Source of the DNA: a virus
Direction: 5' to 3' (one strand)
DNA: 49,134 nucleotides
Virus record (IMG/VR): IMGVR_UViG_3300021085_002896
Span: 1-49,134 of that record
The notes beneath the pieces were generated by a model. The model searched no databases and was not told where the DNA came from. It saw only the letters and a list, made by a program, of their open reading frames with translations. The translations under genes and the position numbers were made by a program. Shown one piece after another: positions 11,762 through 47,774 of this stretch. Positions within the stretch are counted from its first letter, which is position 1; every line of letters starts with the position of its first letter.

Positions 11762-11790
11762 TGAAACAACCCCCTCTTATTTAGTATAAT
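11762..11790 (+). promoter_or_regulatory. Class 2 promoter TGAAAC-N17-TATAAT
   Basis: TGAAAC 11762-11767, 17 nt, TATAAT 11785-11790. Followed by a boxA-like GTTCTTTGACA (11797-11807) and the membrane coiled-coil gene. Confidence 0.7.
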
Positions 11791-11833
11791 TAATAGTTCT
11801 TTGACAGCTATGCTTAAAAATAAACATAAGTAT

Positions 11834-12163
11834 ATGGAAACAACTATTATTACATTCGGTCTGGGTGTGGTGCTAACTCTAATTATTTTAGGGACAGTGT
11901 CATTGTTCAGGTCAACTAAAAAAATCGGTGAATTAGATTCGGCGATTAATCACATCGAAAGTGAAATTCAAAATAGAATAGATTCAGTCGAACACTATTT
12001 AGATAATTGCATAGATGATCTAGATAGAAGATTAGATTCTAGAGTAGATAAAGCAATTTCTCAATTTGAGAAAGAAATAGAAGAAATGGATTTAAGATTA
12101 GATAAAATTATTGATAGTTTTAATCTTCAAAAATCCAAAGAAAAGGAAAACATTCCTAATTAA
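11834..12163 (+). CDS. Small membrane-anchored coiled-coil protein
   Basis: About 109 residues from the ATG at 11834; an in-frame ATG at 11810 is the alternative start. One N-terminal transmembrane helix (TFGLGVVLTLIILGTVSLF) is followed by ~75 residues of charged heptad-like sequence with repeated D-x-x-I-D-x-L-D-x-R. Likely an inner-membrane protein with a long α-helical domain. It follows a class 2 promoter and a boxA-like element. A spanin-like or envelope role is possible; function unknown. Confidence 0.65.
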   Translation: METTIITFGLGVVLTLIILGTVSLFRSTKKIGELDSAINHIESEIQNRIDSVEHYLDNCIDDLDRRLDSRVDKAISQFEKEIEEMDLRLDKIIDSFNLQKSKEKENIPN

Positions 12164-12203
12164 TTTAAATAAATAAACATTAACTCATAGTTGTTGAAGA
12201 ATA

Positions 12204-12288
12204 GGAGAAGTGGCAGAGTGGTCGAATGCACTGGTCTTGAAAACCAGCGAACTTCACGGTTCCAGGGGTTCGAATCCCTTCTTCTCCG
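12204..12288 (+). tRNA. tRNA-Ser(UGA)
   Basis: Acceptor GGAGAAG/CTTCTCC, anticodon loop CTTGAAA (TGA), long class II variable arm, T-arm GGGGTTCGAATCCC. CCA not encoded. Confidence 0.95.
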
Positions 12289-12294
12289 CAAATT

Positions 12295-12371
12295 GGCCTG
12301 GTAGTTCAGCTGGTTAGAATGCATGCCTGTCACGCATGAGGTCGCGAGTTCGAGTCTCGTCCAGGCCGCCA
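12295..12371 (+). tRNA. tRNA-Asp(GUC)
   Basis: Acceptor GGCCTGG/CCAGGCC, anticodon loop CTGTCAC (GTC). The 3' CCA is encoded (12369-12371), unlike its neighbours. Confidence 0.95.
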
Positions 12372-12374
12372 CTC

Positions 12375-12400
12375 AAAGCACATGAAACATTGTGCTTTTA
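12375..12400 (+). terminator. Terminator overlapping a class 2 promoter
   Basis: AAAGCAC (12375-12381) / GTGCTTT (12392-12398), loop holding the TGAAAC promoter box. Ends the tRNA-Ser/Asp transcript. Confidence 0.7.
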
Positions 12401-12411
12401 GGGGGTATAAC
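12383..12411 (+). promoter_or_regulatory. Class 2 promoter TGAAAC-N17-TATAAC
   Basis: TGAAAC 12383-12388 (inside the preceding terminator loop), 17 nt, TATAAC 12406-12411, 20 nt before the PspC-like ATG. Confidence 0.65.
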
Positions 12412-12430
12412 TAATAGAAAATAATTTAAA

Positions 12431-13770: not shown

Positions 13771-14239
13771 AAGAAAATACAGACAAATTAAAAGAGTCTT
13801 AGATTACTTGCCAATTATTTGGAAAGGTTATGATTTTGATTATAGATACGCAATTGATTTATTTAAACATCAATTAATACGTACTTCTAATTTTATGGAA
13901 TCAGATAGAGCGTATGCCATCGATTCCGATATGAGAGCTAAGAGAATTAAAACCGCTATCGAACTTCTTGATAAAGTTTACGATGAAGAATATGGAATGG
14001 AATACCAAGATCAGATGAAAAAGATTTATGGTGATAACGTATTAGATTGGAACTTTGAAGACACTGGAAGAAGAGATGGAACTTCATATATTAATTATGA
14101 ATACGAGAAGTGGGAAAACAAAGATAAAGTTAAAGAAACCTTTGATAAACTATTTAAACAGTCTAAAGAAAAGCAAATTAAAGCAGAGAAATTAGTATGG
14201 AAATTTATATCCCATAACATCCGAGGATGGTGGGATTAA
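13754..14239 (+). CDS. Conserved phage-type hypothetical protein
   Basis: 161 residues, no membrane segment. The N-terminus is basic and aromatic (MAYWFKRKYRQIKRVLDYLP) and is followed by DFDYRYAIDLFKHQLIRTS and a charged helical C-terminus. Proteins of this pattern are familiar in large phages without a known role. Starts inside the RmlC-like gene, suggesting translational coupling. Confidence 0.75.
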   Translation: MAYWFKRKYRQIKRVLDYLPIIWKGYDFDYRYAIDLFKHQLIRTSNFMESDRAYAIDSDMRAKRIKTAIELLDKVYDEEYGMEYQDQMKKIYGDNVLDWNFEDTGRRDGTSYINYEYEKWENKDKVKETFDKLFKQSKEKQIKAEKLVWKFISHNIRGWWD

Positions 14240-14245
14240 AATAAT

Positions 14246-14310
14246 TTGAAAATAATTGCCTAAATATTTTTTTATCTCAGATATTTTGCTTATATTAGTA
14301 TAGTAATAAT
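14246..14310 (+). promoter_or_regulatory. Class 1 conserved promoter element, copy 1
   Basis: TTGAAAATAA lead, TTTTTTTATCTCAG (14267-14280), ATATTTTGCTTATATTAG, then TATAGTAATAAT. TATATTAG may act as a Bacteroidetes -7 box (TAnnTTTG-like). 16 nt before the next ATG. Confidence 0.75.
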
Positions 14311-15318: not shown

Positions 15319-15545
15319 TGGGAATAGAAGGATTATTTTTAACGATTTTCTTAGGAGCATTTGCATTCATAATGGGATGGATGAAAGGATGTGAAGACGA
15401 GCAATCGAGAATTAGAGAAGCTTTCAGGTCAGAAGAATATGACTATGAAGGCTTCTTTAACGTTCTTGAAAAATACGAAGAGGAGAAGGAAGCGGCTAAG
15501 CAATGGGCTAAGTTTAATAAAAAAAGAAAAAAAAATCAAAAATAA
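15318..15545 (+). CDS. Small membrane protein
   Basis: 75 residues. N-terminal transmembrane helix (GLFLTIFLGAFAFIMGWM), followed by an acidic segment and a very basic tail ending KKRKKNQK. Part of the class 1 copy 1 unit; its 3' end runs into class 1 copy 2. Function unknown. Confidence 0.7.
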   Translation: MGIEGLFLTIFLGAFAFIMGWMKGCEDEQSRIREAFRSEEYDYEGFFNVLEKYEEEKEAAKQWAKFNKKRKKNQK

Positions 15546-15600
15546 ACAGCCTAGAATTTTTTTATCTCAGATTTTTTGCTTATATTAGTAGAGTAATAAT
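15536..15600 (+). promoter_or_regulatory. Class 1 conserved promoter element, copy 2
   Basis: AATAAACAGCCTAG, TTTTTTTATCTCAG, TTTTTTGCTTATATTAG, TAGAGTAATAAT; 17 nt before the ATG at 15618. Overlaps the end of the preceding gene. Confidence 0.75.
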
Positions 15601-16516: not shown

Positions 16517-16696
16517 ATGATGACCTATTTGTACATTGGCGTTTTATTCTCTTTATTTTTACACATATCTCATGATATTCAGTCGAAATATATTGAAGAC
16601 TATGATGGAAAAAGATTTACCCTTTTAGAATCTATTTTCTTGACACTAGCATGGCCATTTTACTTATTTCATTTTATCAAAGGATTTTTCGAATAA
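16517..16696 (+). CDS. Small two-helix membrane protein, 59 aa
   Basis: ATG at 16517, stop at 16694. Two hydrophobic segments (MTYLYIGVLFSLFLHI and IFLTLAWPFYLFHFI) separated by a charged loop (QSKYIEDYDGKRFT). Follows the previous stop by 1 nt. Role unknown; a holin-like or envelope role is conceivable. Confidence 0.6.
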   Translation: MMTYLYIGVLFSLFLHISHDIQSKYIEDYDGKRFTLLESIFLTLAWPFYLFHFIKGFFE

Positions 16697-16721
16697 ACTT
16701 TTTGTAAAACCCATATATAAA
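16693..16721 (+). promoter_or_regulatory. Class 2-like promoter ATAAAC-N17-TATAAA
   Basis: ATAAAC 16693-16698, 17 nt, TATAAA 16716-16721. The certain start of the Fpg gene follows by only 4 nt, so any transcript would be nearly leaderless. Confidence 0.4.
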
Positions 16722-18357: not shown

Positions 18358-18595
18358 ACCCACAAAAGAAATGAGAATTAATCCACTTTCCTTACAGGAG
18401 GGAGGATCTACGGTAACGGTGATTTACGATAATTACGCCGTTGAATTTACAAACATCAAATCTCCTTATTCGTATATTTCTTCTATTCGCTTTGCTAAAC
18501 GCAATGATATTTCTCTTAGAGGTTTTTTAATAAACGGTGAAGTATATGACATGTGTAGTGGTAATAAAGAAACAAAAATAAATAAATCAGTATAA
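18344..18595 (+). CDS. Small hypothetical protein
   Basis: 83 residues, β-rich (STVTVIYDNYAVEFTNIK), starts within the end of the oxidoreductase gene. Ends just before the class 2-like box of the next gene. Not recognised. Confidence 0.65.
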   Translation: MKVYRPTKEMRINPLSLQEGGSTVTVIYDNYAVEFTNIKSPYSYISSIRFAKRNDISLRGFLINGEVYDMCSGNKETKINKSV

Positions 18596-18596
18596 T
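18568..18596 (+). promoter_or_regulatory. Class 2 promoter AGAAAC-N17-TATAAT
   Basis: AGAAAC 18568-18573, 17 nt, TATAAT 18591-18596; the epimerase ATG is at 18602, implying a leaderless or near-leaderless mRNA. Confidence 0.5.
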
Positions 18597-19495: not shown

Positions 19496-19979
19496 AAAAG
19501 GTAAAATAGTATTAGTAGGAAAGGCAGCTGCCGGAAAAGATTATTTAAGAACTAGATATGAAAATAGAGGTTTCGTTTTTGGAGTCTCTTATACTACTCG
19601 TCCTCCTCGTAAGAAGGCAAACGAACAAGAAGGAGTAGACTACTATTTTGTAAACGAAGATAGCTTTAAAAATATGATCGATAATGATGAATTCGTTGAG
19701 TATCAAAAATTTAACGGATGGTATTACGGAATCACAAAGGAAGAATTTGAAAGATGTGACGTAATGATTTTAAACGCGGAAGCAGTCGATTTATTAAATG
19801 AAGAATATCGAAGCAGATGCTTTGTAACTTATATAGATATACCAATTGAAGTAAGAAGATCAAGAATTGTTGAAAGAAACGATCCAGACGACAATTTCGA
19901 AAGAAGAATACAGGCAGATGAAGATCAATTTAGAAACTTTTCTAATTTTGATTGTAGAATAACTAACCACAACTTTTAA
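19488..19979 (+). CDS. Guanylate kinase-like nucleotide kinase
   Basis: 163 residues. P-loop GKAAAGKDYL is atypical (GKD in place of GKS/T), as in some phage dNMP kinases. SYTTRPPRKKANEQEGVDYY and FVEYQKFNGWYYGITKE are the GMP-binding motifs of guanylate kinase, but the protein is ~40 residues shorter than Gmk. Likely phosphorylates GMP/dGMP or a related nucleotide. Confidence 0.85.
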   Translation: MHKKGKIVLVGKAAAGKDYLRTRYENRGFVFGVSYTTRPPRKKANEQEGVDYYFVNEDSFKNMIDNDEFVEYQKFNGWYYGITKEEFERCDVMILNAEAVDLLNEEYRSRCFVTYIDIPIEVRRSRIVERNDPDDNFERRIQADEDQFRNFSNFDCRITNHNF

Positions 19980-21023: not shown

Positions 21024-21554
21024 ATGCAAATATTCGTAACATCAAACCAACAGTTTGGGAGACCTGGGGCTATCAAGAAGTATGATAGACCCTTTTCTTC
21101 GCTAGAAGAAATGAACAAAACATTAACAGAGAACTGGAACCTTACAGTTTCACCTGAAGATGTAGTATATGTTTTAGGTAATTTTGGATGGGATCCAACT
21201 ACCGTAGAGAATTGTATTAATACACTAAATGGCCATATATATTTTATAGAAGGAGAATTTGATAAAGCGACTGTTGATGTTTCTATGCTTCCTAACGCAG
21301 ATAAGAAGATGGAAGAAATAGGACAAATAGACTTTTTACCAGAAATGGACGCGTGTATGTCTTATTGGCCTCTTTCAATTTGGCCTGGTAAATACTTATT
21401 AAGCGGTCATCCTTCTAAGAAAATTAAAACAAGTCCTTCTAAAAAGATAATTAATGTATCATGTGATCAATGGTCTTATAAACCAGTTAATATAAAATCA
21501 CTGATCGGGCTGTTTGAGGAAAATAATTTGAAAAAAAGTGAAAATAAACAGTAA
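21024..21554 (+). CDS. Metallophosphoesterase-fold protein lacking metal ligands (pseudoenzyme)
   Basis: 176 residues colinear with phage calcineurin-like phosphoesterases (TSDTHFG, LGDF, GNHD, HYPL, GHSH, VDVWDYKPV). Here the motifs read TSNQQFG (N8, Q10), VLGNFG (N53), EGEFD (E78, F79), SYWPL (Y114), SGHPS (only H129 kept) and CDQWSYKPV. Nearly all metal ligands are replaced while the scaffold is kept, so hydrolysis is unlikely. It may be a decoy, inhibitor or ligand sensor. Immediately upstream of class 1 copy 3. Confidence 0.75.
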   Translation: MQIFVTSNQQFGRPGAIKKYDRPFSSLEEMNKTLTENWNLTVSPEDVVYVLGNFGWDPTTVENCINTLNGHIYFIEGEFDKATVDVSMLPNADKKMEEIGQIDFLPEMDACMSYWPLSIWPGKYLLSGHPSKKIKTSPSKKIINVSCDQWSYKPVNIKSLIGLFEENNLKKSENKQ

Positions 21555-21602
21555 AAAGTTTTTTTATCTCAGATATTTTGCTTATATTAGCTTAGTAATA
21601 AT
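21539..21602 (+). promoter_or_regulatory. Class 1 conserved promoter element, copy 3
   Basis: AAAATAAACAG, TTTTTTTATCTCAG, ATATTTTGCTTATATTAG, CTTAGTAATAAT; drives the sigma-factor gene at 21625. Confidence 0.78.
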
Positions 21603-21624: not shown

Positions 21625-22224
21625 ATGTCTACCTACAAACAACTAACTCAAAACTTTCTAGAAACAGGATCAGATCAAGACTTCGCAGCTCTTTACAATA
21701 AGATAAAGCCAGGTCTAACTTCTTATATTTATAAGATAGTTAAAGATCGTGAAATGGCCGAAGACATCGCAGTTAATACTTTAACTAAGATGTGGACTAA
21801 AATCGAACAATATAACCCAAGCTATGGAATTACTACTTGGTTATATAGAATCGCATTTAACGACTCTTTAGGTTATATTAAGAAAAGAAATCAAACTACG
21901 TCTTTGAGTAAATTATCAGAATATGGCGTAGAAGTAAGTGGCACTGGATCAGTTTCAAATACTCTAAAGGATTTAGTCTTAGATCACGAAGAAAAAACTG
22001 AACAGGATTATCTAGAAGAAGATGATGCTCTTCAAGACAAATACATTAAAACCTTAGAAGCTATGCAAAATCTAAAAGAAATGTATAGAGATATTCTAGT
22101 GGACAGAATGGTAAATCATATGAAATATGACCAACTAGCAATTAAATATAAACTCCCGCTACAAACTATTAAAAATAGAATTCGTAGAGGTAAAGCTTTA
22201 ATCGTTGAAGCTGTAGAAAAATAA
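21625..22224 (+). CDS. ECF-like RNA polymerase sigma factor
   Basis: 199 residues with σ2 (residues ~15-90: LYNKIKPGLTSYIYKIVKDR, then EDIAVNTLTKMWTKI and ITTWLYRIAFNDSLGYIKKR) and σ4 (residues ~140-195: LKEMYRDILVDRMVNHMKYD, then LPLQTIKNRIRRGKALIVEA) and no σ3. An acidic linker joins them. This would redirect host core polymerase to phage promoters, the role of gp55 in T4, though the architecture is ECF-type. Its own promoter is class 1; a class 2 motif with AAAC at -35 fits ECF preference. Confidence 0.88.
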   Translation: MSTYKQLTQNFLETGSDQDFAALYNKIKPGLTSYIYKIVKDREMAEDIAVNTLTKMWTKIEQYNPSYGITTWLYRIAFNDSLGYIKKRNQTTSLSKLSEYGVEVSGTGSVSNTLKDLVLDHEEKTEQDYLEEDDALQDKYIKTLEAMQNLKEMYRDILVDRMVNHMKYDQLAIKYKLPLQTIKNRIRRGKALIVEAVEK

Positions 22225-22532: not shown

Positions 22533-22659
22533 TCAAATTGACGAATGGGACGAAGAACTTTATGAAGATCGTCCTAGGAAGGGTAAATTGCCTAAAATGA
22601 AAGACGTTGAAAAATCGCTAGCAAGCAAAAAAAGAAAAGATATTGAAAATAAACAGTAA
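22519..22659 (+). CDS. Small hypothetical protein, 46 aa
   Basis: ATG at 22519 overlaps the previous stop by 14 nt. Sequence is highly charged: WRNQIDEWDEELYEDRPRKG then a lysine-rich tail. Its 3' end forms the first bases of class 1 copy 4. Confidence 0.5.
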   Translation: MNWRNQIDEWDEELYEDRPRKGKLPKMKDVEKSLASKKRKDIENKQ

Positions 22660-22706
22660 AAAGTTTTTTTATCTCAGTTTTTTTGCTTATATTAGATAAG
22701 TAATTA
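22643..22706 (+). promoter_or_regulatory. Class 1 conserved promoter element, copy 4
   Basis: TTGAAAATAAACAG, TTTTTTTATCTCAG, TTTTTTTGCTTATATTAG, ATAAGTAATTAA; 12 nt before the ATG at 22719. Confidence 0.75.
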
Positions 22707-23637: not shown

Positions 23638-23663
23638 ATAGTATATATCAGATATATAACCTA

Positions 23664-23701
23664 AGCCCACGTCAGAGCGCTGACATTTAACTTCTTGGGC
23701 A
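23664..23701. other. Nested inverted repeat between divergent genes
   Basis: GTCAG/CTGAC (23671-23684, loop AGCG) inside outer arms AGCCCA (23664-23669) / TGGGC (23696-23700). Lies between the divergent starts of the HExxH gene and the secreted-protein gene; may be an operator or RNA hairpin. Confidence 0.4.
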
Positions 23702-23729
23702 GAAATCTATTAAACACTTATTTTTACAC

Positions 23730-25722: not shown

Positions 25723-25734
25723 ATTTCATTTTTT

Positions 25735-25799
25735 TTGAAAATAAACAGCTAAAAGTTTTTTTATCTCAGAATTTTTGCTTATATTAGTATAGTAATAAT
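25735..25799 (+). promoter_or_regulatory. Class 1 conserved promoter element, copy 5
   Basis: TTGAAAATAAACAGCTAAAA, GTTTTTTTATCTCAG, AATTTTTGCTTATATTAG, TATAGTAATAAT; 18 nt before the ATG at 25818. Confidence 0.77.
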
Positions 25800-26649: not shown

Positions 26650-26736
26650 TAAGATAATAATCAATAAATGGTAATTATCCAAGAGTAAAACAGATAAATA
26701 CTCTATAACAATTTTAAAAAAATCATAATTTTTAAT

Positions 26737-27335: not shown

Positions 27336-27364
27336 TGAAACAAACACACCCTCCCTGATATAAA
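27336..27364 (+). promoter_or_regulatory. Class 2 promoter TGAAAC-N17-TATAAA
   Basis: TGAAAC 27336-27341, 17 nt, TATAAA 27359-27364; probable promoter of the tRNA array, directly after a terminator. Confidence 0.7.
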
Positions 27365-28663: not shown

Positions 28664-28692
28664 TTAAACATTTTCTAAATTCTATGTATAAA
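28664..28692 (+). promoter_or_regulatory. Class 2-like promoter TTAAAC-N17-TATAAA
   Basis: TTAAAC 28664-28669, 17 nt, TATAAA 28687-28692. The ATG at 28697 is 4 nt further, so the true start may be the in-frame ATG at 28715. Confidence 0.5.
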
Positions 28693-29402: not shown

Positions 29403-29431
29403 TGAAACATTTATATCCCGATGAATATAAT
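29403..29431 (+). promoter_or_regulatory. Class 2 promoter TGAAAC-N17-TATAAT
   Basis: TGAAAC 29403-29408, 17 nt, TATAAT 29426-29431, 19 nt before the phosphomannomutase ATG. Preceded by a terminator. Confidence 0.72.
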
Positions 29432-31474: not shown

Positions 31475-31484
31475 TGATATATAC
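31475..31484 (+). promoter_or_regulatory. Late-type promoter TGATATATAC
   Basis: TGATATATAC 24 nt before the ATG at 31508. Same core as other late-type boxes. Confidence 0.35.
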
Positions 31485-32044: not shown

Positions 32045-32065
32045 GGGGACTAAATTTAAAATAAA

Positions 32066-32130
32066 TTGAAAATAAACAGCTAAAAGTTTTTTTATCTCAG
32101 ATTTTTTGCTTATATTAGTATAGTAATAAT
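32066..32130 (+). promoter_or_regulatory. Class 1 conserved promoter element, copy 6
   Basis: TTGAAAATAAACAGCTAAAA, GTTTTTTTATCTCAG, TTTTTTGCTTATATTAG, TATAGTAATAAT; ATG at 32145 follows by 14 nt. Confidence 0.77.
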
Positions 32131-33765: not shown

Positions 33766-34716
33766 ATGTTAAATAAGGATTATGATTTAAATCGAAAGCA
33801 ACTCCATTGGAAATTTAGACCTGATGATGGATTATTCTATAAACCTAAACCACCATGGGAACACCATGACACGCACTTTAAAGAATTCAGAGTTGAATAC
33901 GATTCTCTTTGGAGAAGTGGTTTAGCATATATTGCGTATGGAGATAAAGATATTAAACAAGGAATTTTAAATTGTTTTAGGCCTTATATTATAGGAGAAG
34001 ATAGAGATCCTTCTAAAACAATGTATCAGGCAAGTAGAGCGTCTAATCGTTTTGGTGAAGATGACGTATCAAGGGATCAGGTAATTCTCGCTTTGTCTTC
34101 TTTAGAATTCAACGATGACACCGAAGAGGTTATGGAAATATGTAGCAAACTTCCGTTTCGATTAAGTAGAAGATTCTTAATGACACCTACGATGTGGTTT
34201 TGGGTTAAATATCTTGCGACGAGAAAACAGGGATGGAAGAATGCCTTTGCATTTATGCAAACCCTTGAACATTTAATTCAAATTCCACTCACTAAATTTT
34301 TAAGATGGATTAGTGGTGCTACAAAACCTATTCCTCTTCCGCATAATCAACATACTAAATTACCGTATAAAGAAGGATGGAGATGGAAGATATATCAGAC
34401 AATCGGATATCCAGAATATGGTCTTCATTTTGCTGCATGGCAATATTACACGGTGCCATTCTATGGAGTTTTAGGTAAACTAAACAGATGGTTAATGAAG
34501 TGGCAGATGGAAGATTCAAATCTTCTTTTAAGATTACTCCTAGGAGGAAAGGATCTTACAATAAGTGAAGTTAAACATTTCAAACCAACAAATACTTTCA
34601 TGTGGCAAAGAAGGCACGATGCAAGAACAGCATGGATATATGAGCTCAAACCGGAAGAATATGAGTTTAATAATTTAGAAAAAGATATCCTAGGAAGAAT
34701 AAAAAACATTTACTAA
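33766..34716 (+). CDS. Hypothetical protein
   Basis: 316 residues, Trp/aromatic-rich (KQLHWKFRPDDG, LFYKPKPPWEHHDTHF). A central basic helical section ends in FLRWISGATKPIPLPHNQH. No convincing signal peptide. Follows the ligase by 3 nt. No recognised family. Confidence 0.75.
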   Translation: MLNKDYDLNRKQLHWKFRPDDGLFYKPKPPWEHHDTHFKEFRVEYDSLWRSGLAYIAYGDKDIKQGILNCFRPYIIGEDRDPSKTMYQASRASNRFGEDDVSRDQVILALSSLEFNDDTEEVMEICSKLPFRLSRRFLMTPTMWFWVKYLATRKQGWKNAFAFMQTLEHLIQIPLTKFLRWISGATKPIPLPHNQHTKLPYKEGWRWKIYQTIGYPEYGLHFAAWQYYTVPFYGVLGKLNRWLMKWQMEDSNLLLRLLLGGKDLTISEVKHFKPTNTFMWQRRHDARTAWIYELKPEEYEFNNLEKDILGRIKNIY

Positions 34717-34730
34717 AAATAAAGTATAAT
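34702..34730 (+). promoter_or_regulatory. Class 2-like promoter AAAAAC-N17-TATAAT
   Basis: AAAAAC 34702-34707, 17 nt, TATAAT 34725-34730, 15 nt before the RmlD-like ATG. Confidence 0.5.
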
Positions 34731-34745: not shown

Positions 34746-35447
34746 ATGACAATAGTTTTAGGAGACGGTTTATTAGCATCAGAACTTATAGGACAAACTG
34801 GATGGTCCTATCTTTCAAGAAAACAAGACTTTTTAAATTTCAATAGTCTTAGTAGTATTATTAATTTAATTCCAAAGGAATGCACTACGATAGTTAATTG
34901 TATTGCATATACAGATACTTATTCTGATGATAAATCTAAAATGCTTCAGACTAATTATCATTCGGTTGCAAATTTAGTTGAATTCTGTAACCATCGAGGA
35001 ATAAAACTAATTCACTATTCCACAGATTATGTGTATGCTGGTTCGAACTCAAATGCAAGCGAAGAAGATATTCCTATTCCTGACAAAACATGGTATGCAT
35101 ATTCTAAATTATTAGCAGATGAACATATTATTAGACATTCAGATAATTATTTAATAGTAAGAGGAAGTCACAGGATTAATCCATTCCCTTACGCAACTGC
35201 ATGGAACGATCAGATAGGAAATTTCGATGACGTAGACATATTAGTAAATCAGTGGCTTAAATTAATCAAAGCAGAACAAAAGGGCCTATGGAATATAGGA
35301 ACACCCTCAAAGAGTGTATATGAATATGCATCTAGAGAAAAAGATGTCGATTCTGCCCCAGCGCCTGATCATTTTCCAAAGGACACAACGATGGATCTTA
35401 CGAAGTTGAATACCTTTCTTGAAACTTTATCTCAAAACGAAATATAA
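34746..35447 (+). CDS. RmlD-like dTDP-4-dehydrorhamnose reductase/SDR
   Basis: 233 residues, shorter than RmlD (~290). GDGLLASELIGQTGW is a GxGxxG-like NAD(P) site, VNCIAYTDTYSDD and STDYVYAGSNSN the family motifs, and WYAYSKLLAD gives YxxxK. The C-terminus is truncated relative to RmlD. Likely last step of a deoxysugar pathway, with the RmlC-like protein at 13192. Confidence 0.82.
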   Translation: MTIVLGDGLLASELIGQTGWSYLSRKQDFLNFNSLSSIINLIPKECTTIVNCIAYTDTYSDDKSKMLQTNYHSVANLVEFCNHRGIKLIHYSTDYVYAGSNSNASEEDIPIPDKTWYAYSKLLADEHIIRHSDNYLIVRGSHRINPFPYATAWNDQIGNFDDVDILVNQWLKLIKAEQKGLWNIGTPSKSVYEYASREKDVDSAPAPDHFPKDTTMDLTKLNTFLETLSQNEI

Positions 35448-35452
35448 TAGAC

Positions 35453-35725: not shown

Positions 35726-36179
35726 AATAGGAATTACGTGTTCTACGTTTGATCTGTTCCATGCAGGTCATGTAAAGATGCTAGAGGAAGCTAAGAAAGA
35801 GTGTGATTATCTAATAGTTGCCCTACAAACAGATCCCTCGATTGATCGACCTGATTCCAAGAACCCTCCAATTCAAACCTTAGTCGAAAGATATATTCAA
35901 GTTAAGGCTTGTAAATATGTAGACGAAATAGTTCCTTATCAAACAGAGAAAGATTTAGAAGATATTTTTGCAAGCTTCGATTTAGATTGTAGAATATTAG
36001 GTATCGAATATAAGAATAAAGATTTTACTGGAAAAGATACATGTTTAAAGAGAGGAATTGAAATCATATATAATAAAAGAGATCATGGTTTTTCAAGCAC
36101 TGAGCTAAGATCTAGAGTCTGGGAAGTAGAACATTTAAAAAGTTTAGAATTAATTGAAAAAAAATTCAATAAAAGTTGA
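35712..36179 (+). CDS. Cytidylyltransferase-like nucleotidyltransferase (TagD/RfaE type)
   Basis: 155 residues. GITCSTFDLFHAGHVKMLEE carries the HxGH motif and HGFSSTELRSRV the ISSTxxR motif of glycerol-3-P cytidylyltransferase-like enzymes. Couples CTP (or ATP) to a phosphorylated sugar or alcohol, supporting a nucleotide-sugar or lipid pathway. Substrate unknown. Confidence 0.88.
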   Translation: MQRNKIGITCSTFDLFHAGHVKMLEEAKKECDYLIVALQTDPSIDRPDSKNPPIQTLVERYIQVKACKYVDEIVPYQTEKDLEDIFASFDLDCRILGIEYKNKDFTGKDTCLKRGIEIIYNKRDHGFSSTELRSRVWEVEHLKSLELIEKKFNKS

Positions 36180-36205
36180 AACTAAATTAAAGATAACGGT
36201 ATAAT
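36177..36205 (+). promoter_or_regulatory. Class 2 promoter TGAAAC-N17-TATAAT
   Basis: TGAAAC 36177-36182 (overlapping the previous stop), 17 nt, TATAAT 36200-36205. Likely serves the histone-like gene and the structured RNA. Confidence 0.72.
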
Positions 36206-37096: not shown

Positions 37097-37699
37097 ATGG
37101 AACTAATCTTAAACGTTCTTACGGTTTTTTTAACCCTGTTTGCGGTTATCGATATGCCAGGTAATGTACCACTAATCATCAAGCTTAGAAAGGAGAATGG
37201 TGAAATAGAATCGGCGAAGGCTACGTTAATCGCAATATGCATTATGATATCTTTCCTATTTGTAGGTAAAACCCTCTTCATGTTATTAGGTATTGAAACA
37301 TTCCACTTTGCATTAGCAGGTGCAATGCTTCTTCTTTATTTTGGTGTAAAGATGGTTTTAGGAATCGAATCCAGTGCCGAGACAGAACCTATGCCAGCAA
37401 CTATATTTCCAATAGCATTTCCAATTATAGCAGGACCAGGAACCTTATCAACTATCATGTCCTTAACACAAGATCTTTCAGATTTGGTAATTATTATAGG
37501 AATAGTTTTAAACGCAATAGTAATTTACGTATTTTTAAAATCTGCAGACTGGATTCAACGTAAAGTTGGTGTAATAGGAATTACAATAATGGAAAGAGTT
37601 TTTGGTATTATTCTTATCGCAATAGGTATGAAAATCTTAATCACTTCCCTAGTTTTAAGCATTAATGACGTTAATGCCTCCTTAGTCACCAATATCTAG
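37097..37699 (+). CDS. MarC/UPF0056 family integral membrane protein
   Basis: 200 residues, six hydrophobic segments, family length. FLTLFAVIDMPGNVPLIIKL and FPIAFPIIAGPGTLSTIMSL are the two half-repeat motifs (D-x-x-G-N-x-P and P-x-x-x-GPG). MarC proteins are inner-membrane proteins with unclear transport roles. Chromosomal-type cargo in a phage. Followed by a late-type box. Confidence 0.93.
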   Translation: MELILNVLTVFLTLFAVIDMPGNVPLIIKLRKENGEIESAKATLIAICIMISFLFVGKTLFMLLGIETFHFALAGAMLLLYFGVKMVLGIESSAETEPMPATIFPIAFPIIAGPGTLSTIMSLTQDLSDLVIIIGIVLNAIVIYVFLKSADWIQRKVGVIGITIMERVFGIILIAIGMKILITSLVLSINDVNASLVTNI

Positions 37700-37710
37700 A
37701 TATATAAATA
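37699..37710 (+). promoter_or_regulatory. Late-type promoter GATATATAAATA
   Basis: Contains the exact T4 late consensus TATAAATA; ATG at 37732 follows by 21 nt. Overlaps the MarC stop. Confidence 0.5.
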
Positions 37711-37926: not shown

Positions 37927-37937
37927 CTACAATTTAT

Positions 37938-38000
37938 TTGAAAATAAACTGCCCGAAATTTTTTTATTTCGGGTTTTTTAGTTATATTAGTATAGTAATT
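37938..38000 (+). promoter_or_regulatory. Class 1 conserved promoter element, copy 7, with terminator stem
   Basis: Conserved flanks (TTGAAAATAAAC and TTATATTAG TATAGTAAT) but the middle is a perfect stem CCCGAAAT (37952-37959) / ATTTCGGG (37966-37973) followed by T6. It reads as terminator plus promoter. Confidence 0.65.
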
Positions 38001-38745: not shown

Positions 38746-38774
38746 ATAAACCTTTTCGAAAAAGGTTATATAAT
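38746..38774 (+). promoter_or_regulatory. Class 2-like promoter ATAAAC-N17-TATAAT
   Basis: ATAAAC 38746-38751, 17 nt, TATAAT 38769-38774. The hairpin AACCTTTT/AAAAGGTT (38749-38767) lies between the boxes. Probable start of the second tRNA array. Confidence 0.55.
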
Positions 38775-39210: not shown

Positions 39211-39239
39211 AAAGAGGTTTCAGAAATGAAACCTTTTTT
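39211..39239 (+). terminator. Terminator whose 3' arm is a class 2 promoter box
   Basis: AGGTTTC (39215-39221) / GAAACCT (39228-39234) plus T run. GAAAC of the 3' arm is also the -35-like box. Confidence 0.8.
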
Positions 39240-39255
39240 CGTTGGGTAGTATAAA
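39227..39255 (+). promoter_or_regulatory. Class 2 promoter TGAAAC-N17-TATAAA
   Basis: TGAAAC 39227-39232, 17 nt, TATAAA 39250-39255. Upstream of the small ORF and the outer-membrane protein gene. Confidence 0.65.
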
Positions 39256-39872: not shown

Positions 39873-39901
39873 TGAAACAATATATAGGTATATTGTATAA
39901 G
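39873..39901 (+). promoter_or_regulatory. Class 2 promoter TGAAAC-N17-TATAAG
   Basis: TGAAAC 39873-39878, 17 nt, TATAAG 39896-39901. Starts the pseudoknotted RNA/tRNA-Glu transcript, directly after a terminator. Confidence 0.68.
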
Positions 39902-40098: not shown

Positions 40099-40144
40099 AA
40101 AAGTTTTCATATTCTATAACGCATATATAGAGTATGAAACTTTC
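40099..40144 (+). terminator. Long hairpin overlapping a class 2 promoter
   Basis: AAAGTTTTCATA (40099-40110) / TATGAAACTTT (40133-40143), inner CTATA/TATAG. Its 3' arm holds TGAAAC. Confidence 0.6.
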
Positions 40145-40163
40145 TCTTTATAGAAGGTATAAT
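40135..40163 (+). promoter_or_regulatory. Class 2 promoter TGAAAC-N17-TATAAT
   Basis: TGAAAC 40135-40140 (in the hairpin arm), 17 nt, TATAAT 40158-40163, 27 nt before the dehydrogenase ATG. Confidence 0.7.
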
Positions 40164-41065: not shown

Positions 41066-41245
41066 ATGGGAAAGAATAAACCAGATAACTTCGAGGGAAG
41101 AACAAAGGAATGGGATGAAAACCAATGGCAAGGTAGATCTAAACAACAAGTTGAAACAAACTATAGATTAATGGATATAACAGTTGCTACAGGCTTAATC
41201 TGCTTTATAGGAATTATGATATATAGACTAATAACTACATTGTAA
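41066..41245 (+). CDS. Small tail-anchored membrane protein, 59 aa
   Basis: ATG at 41066, TAA at 41243. Charged N-terminal half (PDNFEGRTKEWDENQWQGRS) and one C-terminal transmembrane helix (ITVATGLICFIGIMIYRLI). Two nt from the dehydrogenase stop and 2 nt before thioredoxin. Confidence 0.6.
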   Translation: MGKNKPDNFEGRTKEWDENQWQGRSKQQVETNYRLMDITVATGLICFIGIMIYRLITTL

Positions 41246-41247
41246 TT

Positions 41248-41520
41248 ATGGAACTTTTAAAACAAGTAAAAACAGGAACCCATTTTGTAAAATTTTATGC
41301 AAACTGGTGTGGTCCATGTAAGATGGCAACCAAAGTTTTAGAGAAATGGCAACCTGACACGGATGTCAATATTATTGATATTAATATAGACCAGCACCCG
41401 GACATAGCACAAGAATACATGGTAAGAAGTATTCCTGCCATTATTGTTTTCAAAGATGGAAACCTAATTGATAGAGTAACGGGAATTCCTAAACCAGAAT
41501 TCTTAAGCAAACACGAATAA
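41248..41520 (+). CDS. Thioredoxin
   Basis: 90 residues. FVKFYANWCGPCKMATKVLE has the active site C21-G-P-C24, and VRSIPAIIVFKDGNLIDRVT the conserved cis-Pro strand. Slightly shorter than standard thioredoxins (~105). Reduces disulphides; in phages a processivity or ribonucleotide reductase partner. Linked to the next gene by 1 nt. Confidence 0.93.
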   Translation: MELLKQVKTGTHFVKFYANWCGPCKMATKVLEKWQPDTDVNIIDINIDQHPDIAQEYMVRSIPAIIVFKDGNLIDRVTGIPKPEFLSKHE

Positions 41521-41521
41521 T

Positions 41522-41956
41522 ATGAAAGATTTTTTACTATTTTGGCCAAGATTCATAAAGGAATCTTATTTTATGTATAAGTATAGAAAAATTGCTAACA
41601 GCTTAGCACCTGAACTTGCAGAAGTTGGGTGTAGGGTAGATTGGCTTGGTAGAATTTATACTGTAGTTAATATTAAGGAAGAATTTAGAGCTCAACCAGA
41701 TTTAGTTCAACAATCAATTGTATTTCAAGCGCTAGCGAAACCCAATGAAGTTCTTCTTAAGAATGGTTTATCAGATGTAACATATCCTGAAATTGAAAAA
41801 ATTAAAGGAAGCGATGGCTACTTAGTCATCATGTACCCTGAAAACGATAACTTTAATTTACGATCATTCATAGTTAATACAATACCTACTGTAATTATCG
41901 TGTATGGTTTAACATGGATCCCTTCTCTAGTAAGATGGGTTCAAACTTTATTTTAA
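41522..41956 (+). CDS. Membrane-anchored hypothetical protein
   Basis: 144 residues. A C-terminal hydrophobic helix (SFIVNTIPTVIIVYGLTWIP) and a helical N-terminal domain with LAEVGCRVDWLGRIYTVVNI. Stop overlaps the next ATG (TAATG). Not recognised. Confidence 0.7.
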   Translation: MKDFLLFWPRFIKESYFMYKYRKIANSLAPELAEVGCRVDWLGRIYTVVNIKEEFRAQPDLVQQSIVFQALAKPNEVLLKNGLSDVTYPEIEKIKGSDGYLVIMYPENDNFNLRSFIVNTIPTVIIVYGLTWIPSLVRWVQTLF

Positions 41957-42702
41957 TGAGTGAACAAATAAGTAGAGTAGAAATAAAGGGCAAAAGGCAT
42001 TATCAAGTCAAGAAAGATAATGACATCATAGGAACGTTCCCTTCAGTAACGACAATTCTCAGTGCAACTTCAGATAAAAGTGGTCTTGTAAAATGGCGTA
42101 AAAGGGTAGGGGAAGAAGAAGCAAACCGAATCTCAACACTTTCAATGAACCGTGGTACAGTTATGCACCGCCTAGTTGAGTTATATAAGCCATTACCAGG
42201 TGACAAGAAAGAGAAGCTAAACCAGCTTAAAGAACTAGCGAAGACAGATGAAGAGATCATAGAGTTTGATCAGGAATTTATTAATGAAGGATGGACAATG
42301 TTCTATAAATTCTATACGAATTCTAGTCAATATTTTGATAGAGTAGAAAAGGTTATAGAATCAGAATCATTTCTTTGGTCTTCTAAAGGAGGAGGTTATG
42401 CAGGAACCGTCGATAACATTTCTAAAATGGTAGACGGAACAATACAAATTATAGATTATAAGAATTCTAGAAAACCAAAAAGAGAAGATTGGATTCAGGA
42501 CTATTATATACAGGCCGCGGCATACTATGTTGCATATTGGGAAAGAACAGGAACAAAGGCAGATGGAATAGAAATATGGATCGCTAATGAAATAGATTAT
42601 TGTCCTCAGACATTTACCCTTTCAGCTGAAGATATTAAATATTATTTTAAAGAATTTACAAATAGATTAAATAAGTATAAAGAACAATTAGAAGAAGCAT
42701 GA
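41956..42702 (+). CDS. PD-(D/E)XK exonuclease, MGME1/RecB-like
   Basis: 248 residues from the ATG at 41956. GGGYAGTVDNISKM supplies the first Asp, IQIIDYKNSRKPKREDW the D-x-K, and QDYYIQAAAYYVAYWE the Q-x-x-x-Y motif of RecB-type nucleases; the order resembles mitochondrial exonuclease MGME1. Likely processes single-stranded ends in replication or recombination. Overlaps the next start by 4 nt. Confidence 0.87.
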   Translation: MSEQISRVEIKGKRHYQVKKDNDIIGTFPSVTTILSATSDKSGLVKWRKRVGEEEANRISTLSMNRGTVMHRLVELYKPLPGDKKEKLNQLKELAKTDEEIIEFDQEFINEGWTMFYKFYTNSSQYFDRVEKVIESESFLWSSKGGGYAGTVDNISKMVDGTIQIIDYKNSRKPKREDWIQDYYIQAAAYYVAYWERTGTKADGIEIWIANEIDYCPQTFTLSAEDIKYYFKEFTNRLNKYKEQLEEA

Positions 42703-43770: not shown

Positions 43771-43780
43771 GATATATAAA
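43771..43780 (+). promoter_or_regulatory. Late-type promoter GATATATAAA
   Basis: GATATATAAA ends 21 nt before the ATG at 43802. Downstream genes include the capsid-targeted protein, fitting late expression. Confidence 0.5.
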
Positions 43781-45158: not shown

Positions 45159-45197
45159 TCCTTTCTTGTAATCATAAAATAAAAAGAAGATTAAAAC

Positions 45198-45422
45198 ATG
45201 GCAGAACAAAAAAAATCAGTAGGATTAGGCGATTCAATTGCAAAAATTACAAATGCAACAGGAATCGATAAAATGGCAGAAGGTGTTGCGAAGGCGATGG
45301 GTCGTAAAGATTGTGGCTGTAAAAAGAGACAAGAGAAATTAAATCAAATGTTTCCTTATAACAACGGACCTGAGCCAACACAAGGAGAGGATGCTCCAAA
45401 GGGAGATACACCTCAGCATTAA
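45198..45422 (+). CDS. Small conserved marine-phage-type protein
   Basis: 74 residues. SVGLGDSIAKITNATGIDKM followed by CGCKKRQEKLNQMFPYN is a pattern I recognise from flavobacterial phages ("GLGDxIAKxT..CGCxxRQxxLNxxFPY"), with paired Cys that could bind metal. Function unknown. Confidence 0.7.
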   Translation: MAEQKKSVGLGDSIAKITNATGIDKMAEGVAKAMGRKDCGCKKRQEKLNQMFPYNNGPEPTQGEDAPKGDTPQH

Positions 45423-45441
45423 TAAAAATTAAATATTAGTT

Positions 45442-46308
45442 ATGGAACAAATAAAGAATAAATGGGTGAATGGTTTTATCATAGGAACCTTCGTATCCCT
45501 ATATCTTTTAGTATCGATAATTTCAACTATTCACGTAATAGATTTTTTTGAATTATCAAACCCAAAGTGGCTAGCAATATCATTAGCAATAGGATTTGAA
45601 TTAGGAGCAGCGGCTTCTTTAGCAGCTATTATTACATTAGATAAAATGAATAAAACTCTAGTATGGGCCTTATTCTTAGTAATTACTGCTATGCAAATGC
45701 AAGGAAACATGTATTATGCATTTATCAATATGGGAGATTTTACAACATGGTCAGAATTATTTAACCTAATAGAAGAGGAACCATTATATCAGAAGAGAGT
45801 ATTATCTTTTGTTTCCGGTGCCATTCTTCCATTAGTTGCGCTTGGATTTATTAAATCTTTAGTAGATTATATTAAACCAGCAGATGATTCACCGGTTTTA
45901 GAAGAAGCTTCTATTGAAAAAAAAACTGAAGTAGACAGTAGCTGGAAATCAGAAGATATTCTAGACAAACCTACAAGTGCAGCTCCAGCTCACACCGAAG
46001 GAATGTCAGTTGATGATATCAAAGCATGGCAAGATGTTGGAGATAAATTAGCAGAAGAAGTCGAGGACGAATGGGACGAAGATCACGCGCTTGATATGGT
46101 TATGAATGACATGGTTAAAGATATGGATATTCAAGATTTTGAAGCAGATCAAGAATCTAGACCTAATCTTTTAGAAAAGCAACCACAGACTAATATTCCT
46201 GCAAAGGGTTTTATCAATAGACCCACTGAAACCACAAGTGTAACTCTAGAAGGTGGTAAGGGAAATATACAGAGAAAGATTAGAGAAGAAAGAAAAATAA
46301 ATAAGTAA
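45442..46308 (+). CDS. Four-helix membrane protein with acidic cytosolic tail
   Basis: 288 residues. Four hydrophobic helices in the first ~150 residues (NGFIIGTFVSLYLLVSIIST, WLAISLAIGFELGAAASLAA, TLVWALFLVITAMQMQGNMY, FVSGAILPLVALGFIKSLV), then ~130 residues of acidic, disordered tail (DEWDEDHALDMVMND). Stop overlaps the next ATG. Function unknown. Confidence 0.75.
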   Translation: MEQIKNKWVNGFIIGTFVSLYLLVSIISTIHVIDFFELSNPKWLAISLAIGFELGAAASLAAIITLDKMNKTLVWALFLVITAMQMQGNMYYAFINMGDFTTWSELFNLIEEEPLYQKRVLSFVSGAILPLVALGFIKSLVDYIKPADDSPVLEEASIEKKTEVDSSWKSEDILDKPTSAAPAHTEGMSVDDIKAWQDVGDKLAEEVEDEWDEDHALDMVMNDMVKDMDIQDFEADQESRPNLLEKQPQTNIPAKGFINRPTETTSVTLEGGKGNIQRKIREERKINK

Positions 46309-46742
46309 TGATAAAAAGAATTCCAATAAGACTTCCCTCGTTTTATATTTCTAAAAAGATAGAGACGAGTGCATTTAAGACTGCGTTGGCTTCAACATAT
46401 CAAACAGCATATAGGTTATATCTAATAACCAATGGAATTAAAGATTTTATCGAATTCATAGAATATGAAGGAGATGATTATTTTATAAGAGCTGCTGTCA
46501 AAACTCAAGCAAGCTTTATCGGAGAGGCTAAAGAACAGGTTCATGCTGTAAAGCATCTTAGTCCTCTTATTAAGAACAAACCACTTTATACTATTAAATG
46601 TTCTATCACATGCAAAAAAACCAACAAGGAATTATATGTATGCGATAAATTTTCAAAGAAACCTATGCAAATCTATGATCAAATAGAAGAATGCATCGAA
46701 GATATTAAAATCATCACGGGTCTAGAATTACTACGACCTTAA
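46308..46742 (+). CDS. Hypothetical protein
   Basis: 144 residues, cytoplasmic, basic N-terminus (KRIPIRLPSFYISKKIETS) and a mixed αβ body. Starts by overlap with the membrane protein and precedes the endolysin by 16 nt. Not recognised. Confidence 0.7.
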   Translation: MIKRIPIRLPSFYISKKIETSAFKTALASTYQTAYRLYLITNGIKDFIEFIEYEGDDYFIRAAVKTQASFIGEAKEQVHAVKHLSPLIKNKPLYTIKCSITCKKTNKELYVCDKFSKKPMQIYDQIEECIEDIKIITGLELLRP

Positions 46743-46758
46743 AAAATAAATTAACATA

Positions 46759-47694
46759 ATGATACTTAAGAATGGATCTAAAGGAAAAGAAGTTAAAGAA
46801 CTTCAAAGATTTTTGGATATACAGGCAGATGGAATATTCGGCCCAGGAACTGAAAGACACGTTAAAAAATGGCAAGCCGAAAACAATCTTGTTGTTGACG
46901 GTATTGTCGGTCCTGCCACTTGGGATGCTATGGGTTTGGCTACAACTGATGATTCAGAAAAAATCTACGAAACAGAAGAAGGACTTATAATAAATAAAAG
47001 TTATTTGCCTAAGGGTGAGTACTTAAAAGGACCAACTAAAAAGGAATTCTTATTCTTACACCATACTGCAGGATGGAATAATCCATATAGAACTATTGAA
47101 CACTGGGGTAGAGACACGAGAGGAAGAGTTGCAACAGAATTCTGCATAGGAGGTCAATCGATTAAGGGTAATGATGATATGTATGATGGTGAAGTAGTAC
47201 AAGCTTTTCCAGAAGGAGGCTATGGATGGCACCTAGGAAAGAACGGATCCCAGTATATGCATAATCATTCGGTAGGAATCGAAGTAAACAACTTTGGATA
47301 TTTAACAAAGGGAGGTTATAAGAAGAAGGTTAATGGAAAAAGAACATGGATAGAAAAAGATCCAAATAGCTTTTACACTTATGCTGGAACTAGAGCAGAC
47401 GAATCTCAAATCGTAGAATGTTCCTTTAAAGGATATGATTATTGGCACAAATATACGGATGCTCAGATAGAATCTTTAAGGCTTCTTATTTTACATATAG
47501 GTGATAGAGATGGAATTGACGTGAGAGTTGGGTTACCTACATTAATTAAAACAATGGGTGCTAAGGCTTTCGAATGGAACGAAGATGCATATTATGGTAA
47601 AGTAAAGGGATTATGGACACATACTAATACAAAGAAAGGAAAATTCGATATGTTTCCTCAGCAAGAATTGTTAGATATGTTAACTAGTCTATAA
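46759..47694 (+). CDS. Endolysin: peptidoglycan-binding + N-acetylmuramoyl-L-alanine amidase
   Basis: 311 residues. Residues ~1-60 are a PG_binding_1 domain (GSKGKEVKELQRFLDIQADG, FGPGT). Residues ~95-290 are an Amidase_2 domain: FLHHTAGW gives the zinc His, HNHSVGIEVNNFG the second motif, and a third ligand lies further on. Cleaves the amide between MurNAc and L-Ala. No signal peptide, so a holin is needed (candidate at 29030). Followed by a terminator. Confidence 0.93.
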   Translation: MILKNGSKGKEVKELQRFLDIQADGIFGPGTERHVKKWQAENNLVVDGIVGPATWDAMGLATTDDSEKIYETEEGLIINKSYLPKGEYLKGPTKKEFLFLHHTAGWNNPYRTIEHWGRDTRGRVATEFCIGGQSIKGNDDMYDGEVVQAFPEGGYGWHLGKNGSQYMHNHSVGIEVNNFGYLTKGGYKKKVNGKRTWIEKDPNSFYTYAGTRADESQIVECSFKGYDYWHKYTDAQIESLRLLILHIGDRDGIDVRVGLPTLIKTMGAKAFEWNEDAYYGKVKGLWTHTNTKKGKFDMFPQQELLDMLTSL

Positions 47695-47708
47695 ATAATA
47701 AAACTAAT

Positions 47709-47734
47709 AAAGCTCAGTCTATCTGGGCTTTTTT
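47709..47734 (+). terminator. Intrinsic terminator
   Basis: AAAGCTCAG (47709-47717) / CTGGGCTTT (47723-47731) plus T run. Confidence 0.85.
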
Positions 47735-47745
47735 AGGGTCTTCTG

Positions 47746-47774
47746 TGAAACTATTGCCATTTAACTAGTATAAT
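47746..47774 (+). promoter_or_regulatory. Class 2 promoter TGAAAC-N17-TATAAT
   Basis: TGAAAC 47746-47751, 17 nt, TATAAT 47769-47774, 20 nt before the ATG at 47795 and right after a terminator. Confidence 0.72.

Follow-up and report, generated by a model that had tools for sequence, protein, structure and literature searches.

An ECF-type sigma factor and a two-box promoter class in T4-like phages of probable Bacteroidota: a proposed middle stage of transcription

Early transcription of phage SPO1 is carried out by the host sigma factor. Its middle and late sigma factors, gp28 and gp34, are phage-encoded (PMC9429907). In phage 7-11, the sigma factor gp47 has a region 4 and a two-box promoter (GTAAtg-16-aCTA), and in phiEco32, gp36 has no region 4 and a promoter of one box (PMC8948821); an 'ECF sigma factor' (extracytoplasmic function) has been named in the phiEco32-like phage SU10 (PMC4281155). 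The late box of T4 is TATAAAT (PMC3037559), and the promoter of SigW is TGAAAC-N16,17-CGTA (PMC2375139). Sigma cascades as such are already known in phages, from SPO1, phiEco32 and 7-11. Here we analyse a stretch of 49,134 nt (the window) of the IMG/VR virus record IMGVR_UViG_3300021085_002896, which carries a recurrent two-box motif, TGAAAC-N17-TATAA or, more loosely, AAAC-N17-TATAA, and at 21625 a gene for an ECF-type sigma factor. Comparison with related genomes makes it, in our judgement, quite likely that these sites are the middle promoters of a T4-like Bacteroidota phage and that they are read by host core polymerase carrying the phage ECF sigma factor.

As in SPO1, the middle and the late sigma factors would both be phage-encoded; the differences are that the middle sigma of the window phage is of the ECF type, that the late sigma of its relatives is T4 gp55-like and that its terminase relatives include Bacteroidota phages. 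With phiEco32 and 7-11 the system would share a phage sigma of the sigma-70 family that redirects the host polymerase, with two boxes where region 4 is present and one where it is not. It differs in its boxes and in the number of factors: 7-11 has one sigma, for late genes, and phiEco32 one, for middle and late genes, whereas here there are two, and the gene of the sigma with the single box seems to be under the control of the two-box promoters. The likeness to T4 lies in a gp55-like late sigma (in the relatives) and in a single-box late promoter, which this sigma would read; in contrast to T4, eight relatives yielded neither MotA nor AsiA, the middle class has both boxes of a full promoter, with TGAAAC as one of them, and the late box is GATATATA. 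The SigW regulon has the same TGAAAC -35 box and a spacer of 16-17 nt, and SigW is the closest solved relative by sequence; here, however, the -10 box is TATAAw and not CGTA, and the sigma is phage-encoded and would serve phage genes.

What appears to be new in T4-like phages is the combination, an ECF middle sigma in place of MotA/AsiA, ahead of a gp55 late sigma, together with a change of boxes in the case of a diverged ECF. A review of jumbo phages ascribes minimal and RpoD-like sigma factors and gp33 to this phage group and suggests that they recruit the host polymerase; its accessible part reports sigma genes and no promoter classes (PMC7824862). The accessible part of PMC3498285 gives no consensus. 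Among the literature matches listed, judged by title and opening of the abstract and with subscription journals thinly covered, none was recognisable as dealing with promoter classes or an ECF cascade in T4-like Bacteroidota phages. The analysis offers a testable transcription plan, drawn from sequence alone, for environmental phages of probable Bacteroidota.

The two-box class in the window and its relatives

An earlier note on this DNA had listed 14 sites, every one of which reads AAAC-N17-TATAA at its coordinates, and had missed one, at 35420 (TGAAAC-N17-TATAAT). The full motif, TGAAAC-N17-TATAA, is found 10 times on the plus strand (nine listed sites and the missed one) and never on the minus strand, against a mean of 0.05-0.09, and never more than 1, in Markov simulations (order 1, 3 and 5; 200 each). 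AAAC-N17-TATAA occurs 15 times on the plus strand and never on the minus strand; the simulations gave a mean of 1.0-1.3 and never more than 6. As about one such site is expected by chance, a single weak AAAC-only site needs positional support. The -10 box reads TATAAw at 13 of the 15 sites, and a position-weight matrix (PWM) adds one further middle site, at 19932, to give 16 in the window, all on the plus strand.

The spacer had been called invariant. Seventeen nucleotides does dominate, but other lengths occur, and it is nearly rather than strictly fixed. For spacers of 10 to 25 nt, TGAAAC and TATAA are also combined on the plus strand at N18 three times (7254, 13104 and 41152, of which one is intergenic, with its -10 box outside called open reading frames, ORFs) and once each at N10 and N12. 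For AAAC and TATAA, the other spacers on this strand give 7 matches at N12, 4 at N18, 3 at N13 and 0-2 at each of the remainder. The N18 variant is also present 5' of the gp55 gene in two relatives. With N18 as the spacer, the PWM drifted to unrelated motifs both in the set W+G8 and in PAU, and its output was not used.

An excess of intergenic over coding hits, which the earlier note had proposed as a check, is evident: the -10 box lies outside called ORFs at 13 of the 15 AAAC-N17-TATAA sites, though the window is 90% coding, and the opposite strand has none. The same holds for 24 of 32 sites in a 178-kb relative (94% coding), which has 2 on the opposite strand, and for 23 of 32 in another, of 180 kb (92% coding), which has 0. 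The sites stand ahead of genes and tRNAs, as had been described; the structured RNAs also mentioned there were not found, tRNAs apart, by Rfam at gathering scores. Putative terminators can be made out by eye just ahead of some of them.

The class is widely conserved. Motif counts covered 48 IMG/VR records. Every one of the first 30, drawn half from the ECF loci (15 of 17) and half from the terminase loci (15 of 80), has the motif (219 matches versus 3 reversed, near-identical strains included); so do 17 of 18 others, chosen out of 80 for carrying the ECF gene (95 matches versus 0 reversed, some near-identical strains among them). It is also distinct from the housekeeping promoter of Bacteroidota, as the earlier note had argued in calling it probably phage-specific. 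The element of the primary sigma factor, TAnnTTTG at -7 (PMC7366714), is present at 0 of the 15 sites, which rules out the host element as an explanation of the TGAAAC class, and a separate host-like class exists.

The window, whose genes include those for a terminase large subunit, a tail sheath protein, an ATP-dependent DNA ligase and 11 tRNAs, belongs to a virus whose terminase is closest, in the phage collection, to those of uncultured megaphages, Tenacibaculum phage PTm1, phage PAU and Flavobacterium phage MaF61, with the Prevotella Lak phages further down. Because of this kinship, and of a type IX secretion signal (CHU_C, Pfam) on one window protein, the product of gene 23730, Bacteroidota are the probable host group.

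Two sigma genes and the boxes in front of them

The ECF-like sigma factor that the earlier note had placed at 21625 is genuinely of the ECF type by Pfam, PDB and Foldseek matches. Pfam Sigma70_r2 matches above its cut-off (8.9e-11), and r4_2 matches at 9.4e-6, with 25.6 bits versus a cut-off of 25.7. The best PDB match by sequence is SigW (1e-9; 1.2e-12 with a profile), and the protein aligns over its full length to SigW, AlgU and sigmaE. For its AlphaFold model (pLDDT 82.7, pTM 0.46) the first 20 of 20 Foldseek matches are ECF sigma factors, at a full-length root-mean-square deviation of 12-18 A with the two domains placed differently; the modelled region 4 fits sigmaE region 4 on its -35 DNA within 0.9 A over 62 columns (E 0.048). 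Among the residues invariant in 32 ECF relatives are TTWLYRI in region 2 and QT-KNRI-RG in region 4. The earlier note had called an AAC-containing -35 box typical of ECF targets, and TGAAAC is identical to the published SigW -35 box; that the 21625 protein is the one that reads it, we infer. As the -10 box is TATAAw and not CGTA, we do not place this protein in the SigW subgroup. Bacterial ECF relatives (49 loci in a collection of 84,980 species) reach at most 44% identity and match over short stretches only, so that no recent donor was identified. Elsewhere, the crAss-like phage cr50_1 (MT774375) encodes at 41511-42068 a 'sigma-W factor' distantly like the window ECF, in a genome that has no TGAAAC-N17-TATAA.

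Upstream of the ECF gene lies a member of a second class. Its element is long, with an A/T-rich upstream tract, a T-run and a TAnATTw -7 box, and ends in GCTTATATTAG in the window and in TATATTTAC in relatives. There are 7 exact copies of GCTTATATTAG on the plus strand of the window and 0 on the minus strand, and a matrix scan finds 8 elements, all on the plus strand. The class resembles the Bacteroidota TAnnTTTG element; its PTm1 counterpart, TATATTTG, matches TAnnTTTG, is found in the early role 57 times on the plus and 18 times on the minus strand, and fits the published -7 box of Bacteroidota. The locus lists used here and below hold the best 80 of 113 ECF relatives, the best 80 of 419 terminase relatives and the best 80 of at least 439 gp55 relatives, and upstreams were counted as distinct by their exact sequence of 90-120 nt, so that related strains weigh more than once. 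Seventy-nine ECF loci were usable (one was too short), with 55 distinct upstreams, and 77 gp55 loci (three too short), with 35. In 51 of the 55 distinct upstreams (5 of 55 when reversed) the ECF gene has an early-type box ahead of it, and in 0 of 55 the TGAAAC-type motif. In two of the four counted as lacking the early box the start of the gene seems to have been miscalled, the box being at the extreme end of the upstream. In the intergenic early elements of another IMG/VR record (G026, 234 kb), we noted by eye a conserved upstream part, TTAACA and TTTTACCG/TTTCCCG, unlike the TTTTTTTATCTCAG of the window; the early class therefore varies between relatives in its upstream part and keeps its -7-like box.

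The third class has a single box, GATATATA, and emerged from an intergenic k-mer count in two relatives that made no use of the motif of the earlier note (44 of 182 stretches versus 1 reversed). No upstream (-35) box is conserved among 63 GATATATA sites. Between the terminase and tail sheath genes the box is present at 80 of 80 loci and in 46 of 46 distinct 120-nt stretches, and reversed in 0. A matrix scan of the window gives 10 late boxes on the plus and 2 on the minus strand. The T4 late box TATAAAT(A) was rejected as the late class: TATAAATA is without strand enrichment, with plus/minus counts of 6/4 in the window and of 17/25 and 16/28 in the relatives G008 and G015. A late-class PWM for G26 drifted to the early class and was set aside.

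A profile for the T4 late sigma (phrog_234) matches a gp55-like sigma in 9 of 9 genomes, among them T4 as control (2.5e-70) and G008 (E 2e-10). Region 4 was not matched in this protein, and its alignment by sequence against the PDB gave no sigma match; the homologue, present in relatives, was not found in the window fragment. In front of its gene AAAC-N17-TATA occurs at 74 of 77 loci and in 33 of 35 distinct upstreams, one more having N18, and reversed in 0 of 35, with 27-60 nt between the end of the motif and the matched start of the gp55 protein. The spacer is variable in sequence, at 0.1-1.8 bits per column over 29 distinct copies, the letters of the boxes being fixed by the search itself. 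An early box before the proposed middle sigma gene and a middle box before the late one is an order that would correspond to the SPO1 type. The earlier note had seen the sites and the sigma gene; it had missed the early class, the late class, the link to gp55 and the leaderless subset described below.

From this order of boxes we infer which protein reads which box and at what stage. The host primary sigma would read the early promoters, one of which would make the ECF sigma. The ECF sigma would place its region 4 on TGAAAC and its region 2 on TATAAw 17 nt downstream, and would transcribe genes of replication, recombination and nucleotide metabolism, tRNAs and the gene of the gp55-like late sigma. 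The latter would then read the single box GATATATA before the virion genes. The gene content of the classes, taken from a selection of genes of G008 and from the window tail sheath, is consistent with this scheme. Behind GATATATA are the head protease, major head protein and tail tube genes of G008 and the tail sheath gene of the window. The middle class precedes, in G008, the genes for thymidylate synthase, single-strand binding protein, clamp loader, dCMP deaminase, an endonuclease, an epimerase and gp55, and also those for a member of an ATP-dependent protease family, a DprA-like protein (with a late box too) and SbcC (with the box 213 nt away). The early class precedes mainly small proteins without assignment, a DnaB-like protein, a nucleotidase and the ECF sigma. 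PHROGs families were matched by 28 of 50 proteins (late 8 of 20, middle 16 of 20, early 4 of 10).

Which factor reads the two-box class

The comparison between phages supports the view that the TGAAAC class accompanies the ECF sigma across related phages, and that boxes and spacer co-vary with it in MaF61. This phage (PQ858689) encodes at 67707-68411 an ECF-like protein of 234 aa, annotated as hypothetical (family hidden Markov model, HMM, E 1.4e-5). It has one TGAAAC-N17-TATAA, and TGCAAC-N15-GCATT at 28 places on both strands; spacers of 11-14 and 16-20 nt give no match. At 20 of the 28 a gene is called to start on the same strand within 100 nt, and one of the 28 precedes the gp55-like gene; six other sequences have 0 or 1 copies each. 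LR756500, which has an ECF relative with 33.5% identity over 97% of the protein (tblastn), has 11 of its 29 TGAAAC-N12..22-TATAA matches at N17 (the reversed pattern gives 16 over all spacers), and T4 has no match at N17. As the sigma family is tied to its boxes, with co-variation in one case, such natural pairs could open ECF promoter recognition to study.

Several observations weigh against an ECF sigma as the reader of these sites. The most serious comes from PAU (JQ362498), which has 22 TGAAAC-N17-TATAA on the plus strand and 0 on the minus strand, yet no ECF by HMM; its sigma is instead an RpoD-like protein of 362 aa, at 94-1182, at the start of the record, and its gp55 gene has no TGAAAC motif upstream. 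Region 2 matches above the cut-off are found without a peak at N17 in LR756501 (3 of 31 matches at N17), LR756502 (3 of 19), LR745206 (0 of 17) and Lak-A1 (0 of 35). A scan for sigma region 2 (PF04542) in 28 records, 17 of them from IMG/VR, left five of the 17 with the motif and no ECF match: G016, G019, G024 and G029 have no region 2 match, and G017 a gp55-like match only; all five may be fragments. In G036 (45.8 kb), one of the records with an ECF gene, the motif has no exact match. The SigW-type promoter, TGAAAC-N15..18-CGTA, is absent from both strands of the window. A loose early-type box precedes gp55 in 8 of 35 distinct upstreams (3 reversed), and AAAC-N17-TATA follows the terminase gene in 2 of 46 distinct stretches. 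The gp55 assignment in MaF61 is weak (tblastn E 3e-5; profile E 0.0018), as is the profile match in PTm1 (E 0.0056). Two middle-class genes match virion families, one a minor coat family, in a gene that also has a late box, and the other a head maturation protease, which is also ClpP-type-like.

The alternative that fares best is a different factor, common to all these phages including PAU, either a host alternative sigma or a phage activator working with the host sigma, that reads the middle promoters while the ECF acts elsewhere. PAU, with the same boxes and spacing and no ECF, speaks for it, as does a TATAA -10 box unlike that of SigW. We nevertheless regard it as improbable: the class is present in 17 of the 18 further ECF-bearing records, boxes and spacer differ where the ECF has diverged, in MaF61, and PTm1, which has a Bacteroidota host and a related terminase, showed neither an ECF (by HMM) nor such a two-box class. 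Moreover, TAnnTTTG is absent from the sites, and TGAAAC has been published as the -35 box of an ECF sigma. Of nine records searched for MotA and AsiA, only T4 yielded them and the eight relatives gave no match; four of the nine are IMG/VR records and possibly incomplete. For PAU itself, either its own RpoD-like sigma reads the same boxes or a common factor does, and it stands as an unexplained exception. PAU also has a separate late-type box, TATACATA, 50 times on the plus and 2 times on the minus strand. Scans of IMG/VR with the ECF-like protein of MaF61 found no relatives, and with the PAU sigma PAU itself only, so that both cases rest on one genome each. Both phages are recorded with named bacterial hosts, and the predictions are therefore testable in culture.

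It is highly unlikely that the gp55-like sigma reads both TATAA-type boxes, with a separate protein bound to TGAAAC and the promoter before gp55 serving autoregulation. The gp55-like sigma is indeed found in all nine genomes, PAU included, and TATAAw resembles GATATATA as a -10 box; against this, the late boxes lack a conserved -35 box, the gene content differs by class, PTm1 has a (weak) gp55-like match but no TGAAAC class, and the corresponding class of MaF61 ends in GCATT. That the motif is no promoter at all, and is a repeated binding site or a compositional accident of A+T-rich intergenic DNA, is scarcely credible in view of its strand bias, its fixed spacing, its fixed distance to ATG in a subset and its place before the same gene with a changing spacer, only the AAAC-only sites being weak on their own (about one expected; AAAC-N12-TATAA occurs 7 times). 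Reading by host polymerase with the ECF sigma accordingly seems to us the best account. One might tentatively go further and speculate that a T4-like lineage swapped MotA/AsiA for an ECF sigma, with boxes and spacer evolving along with the protein, that in PAU the promoter class outlived a sigma swap and is read by the unrelated RpoD-like sigma, and that the fixed 4-nt gap between -10 box and ATG, common to the middle and the late class, marks a built-in leaderless set.

Start-codon distances and features of the window

The distance from the -10 box to ATG is bimodal in the middle class of the window and G008, two sequences with partly shared content: it is 4-5 nt in 13 of 54 cases, 6-14 nt in none and 15 nt or more in the rest. 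In the same two sequences the late class has 8 of 47 at 4 nt, one at 6 nt and the rest at 20 nt or more, and the early class 0 of 24 below 18 nt. When sites are grouped roughly by downstream gene family, the distance is 4-5 nt for 15 of 116 middle families and for 15 of 112 late ones, and 6-12 nt for 9 and 1. An ATG at 4 nt follows 47 of 300 AAAC-N17-TATAAN versus 82 of 8150 of all TATAAN at the same loci; two controls with wrong spacers have small peaks too, one at 3 nt for spacers 21-22 (16 of 149) and one at 6 nt for spacers 13, 14, 21 and 22 (5 of 30), possibly through repeated loci. In the window, ATG comes 4-5 nt after the box at 16693, 18568, 28664 and 35420. From such distances we predict that a minority of the middle and late promoters would give leaderless mRNAs. 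Leaders shorter than 10 nt make up only about 3.7% of the 5' leaders of Bacteroides thetaiotaomicron (PMC7366714).

Table 1. Sigma gene and predicted promoter elements of the window
Feature	Position	Strand	Sequence or context	Basis
ECF-type sigma gene, 199 aa, proposed middle sigma	21625..22224	+		Pfam, PDB, AlphaFold/Foldseek
Middle site	11762..11790	+	TGAAAC-N17-TATAAT	PWM 26.0
Middle site	12383..12411	+	TGAAAC-N17-TATAAC	pattern + PWM
Middle site	16693..16721	+	ATAAAC-N17-TATAAA; ATG 4 nt after box, predicted leaderless; before Fapy/Nei-type glycosylase gene 16726	
Middle site	18568..18596	+	AGAAAC-N17-TATAAT; ATG 5 nt after box; before epimerase gene 18602	
Middle site	19932..19960	+	AGAAAC-N17-TAGAAT; before ORF 20002	PWM only, 27.3
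Middle site	27336..27364	+	TGAAAC-N17-TATAAA; before tRNA array 27499-28052	
Middle site	28664..28692	+	TTAAAC-N17-TATAAA; ATG 4 nt after box	
Middle site	29403..29431	+	TGAAAC-N17-TATAAT; before phosphomannomutase-like gene 29451	
Middle site	34702..34730	+	AAAAAC-N17-TATAAT; before epimerase gene 34746	
Middle site	35420..35448	+	TGAAAC-N17-TATAAT; overlaps 3' end of ORF 34746; ATG 4 nt after box	
Middle site	36177..36205	+	TGAAAC-N17-TATAAT	
Middle site	38746..38774	+	ATAAAC-N17-TATAAT; before tRNA-Ala 38812	
Middle site	39227..39255	+	TGAAAC-N17-TATAAA; upstream of ORF 39398	
Middle site	39873..39901	+	TGAAAC-N17-TATAAG; before tRNA-Glu 40021	
Middle site	40135..40163	+	TGAAAC-N17-TATAAT; before UDP-glucose dehydrogenase gene 40191	
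Middle site	47746..47774	+	TGAAAC-N17-TATAAT	
Early element	14238..14305	+		exact copy + PWM
Early element	15528..15595	+		exact copy + PWM
Early element	21530..21597	+	directly upstream of ECF sigma gene; host-like element at 21580	
Early element	22635..22702	+		exact copy + PWM
Early element	25727..25794	+		exact copy + PWM
Early element	32058..32125	+		exact copy + PWM
Early element	37930..37997	+		PWM only
Early element	48256..48323	+		exact copy + PWM
Late box	1382..1389	+	GATATATA; before ORF 1410, whose G008 counterpart weakly matches terminase small subunit (E 7e-4)	
Late box	3914..3921	+	GATATATA; before tail sheath gene 3955	
Late box	6622..6629	+	GATATATA; before ORF 6655, whose G008 counterpart matches tail tube	
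Late box	8734..8741	+		PWM only
Late box	23651..23658	+	before CHU_C gene 23730; paired with divergent copy on minus strand	
Late box	26693..26700	+	before ORF 26737	PWM only
Late box	31476..31483	+	GATATATA	pattern + PWM
Late box	37699..37706	+	GATATATA	pattern + PWM
Late box	41218..41225	+	GATATATA	pattern + PWM
Late box	43771..43778	+	GATATATA	pattern + PWM

Some further features of the window deserve mention. At 23630-23760 two late boxes overlap divergently, the plus-strand copy before the CHU_C gene and the minus-strand copy before a small ORF with its ATG 4 nt away. Genes of sugar-nucleotide metabolism, for a phosphomannomutase-like protein (29451-30242), a UDP-glucose/GDP-mannose dehydrogenase (40191-41063) and epimerases (18602 and 34746), all stand behind putative middle promoters. 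Finally, the phage carries at 37097-37699 a gene for a membrane protein of the MarC family (Pfam E 1.8e-32).

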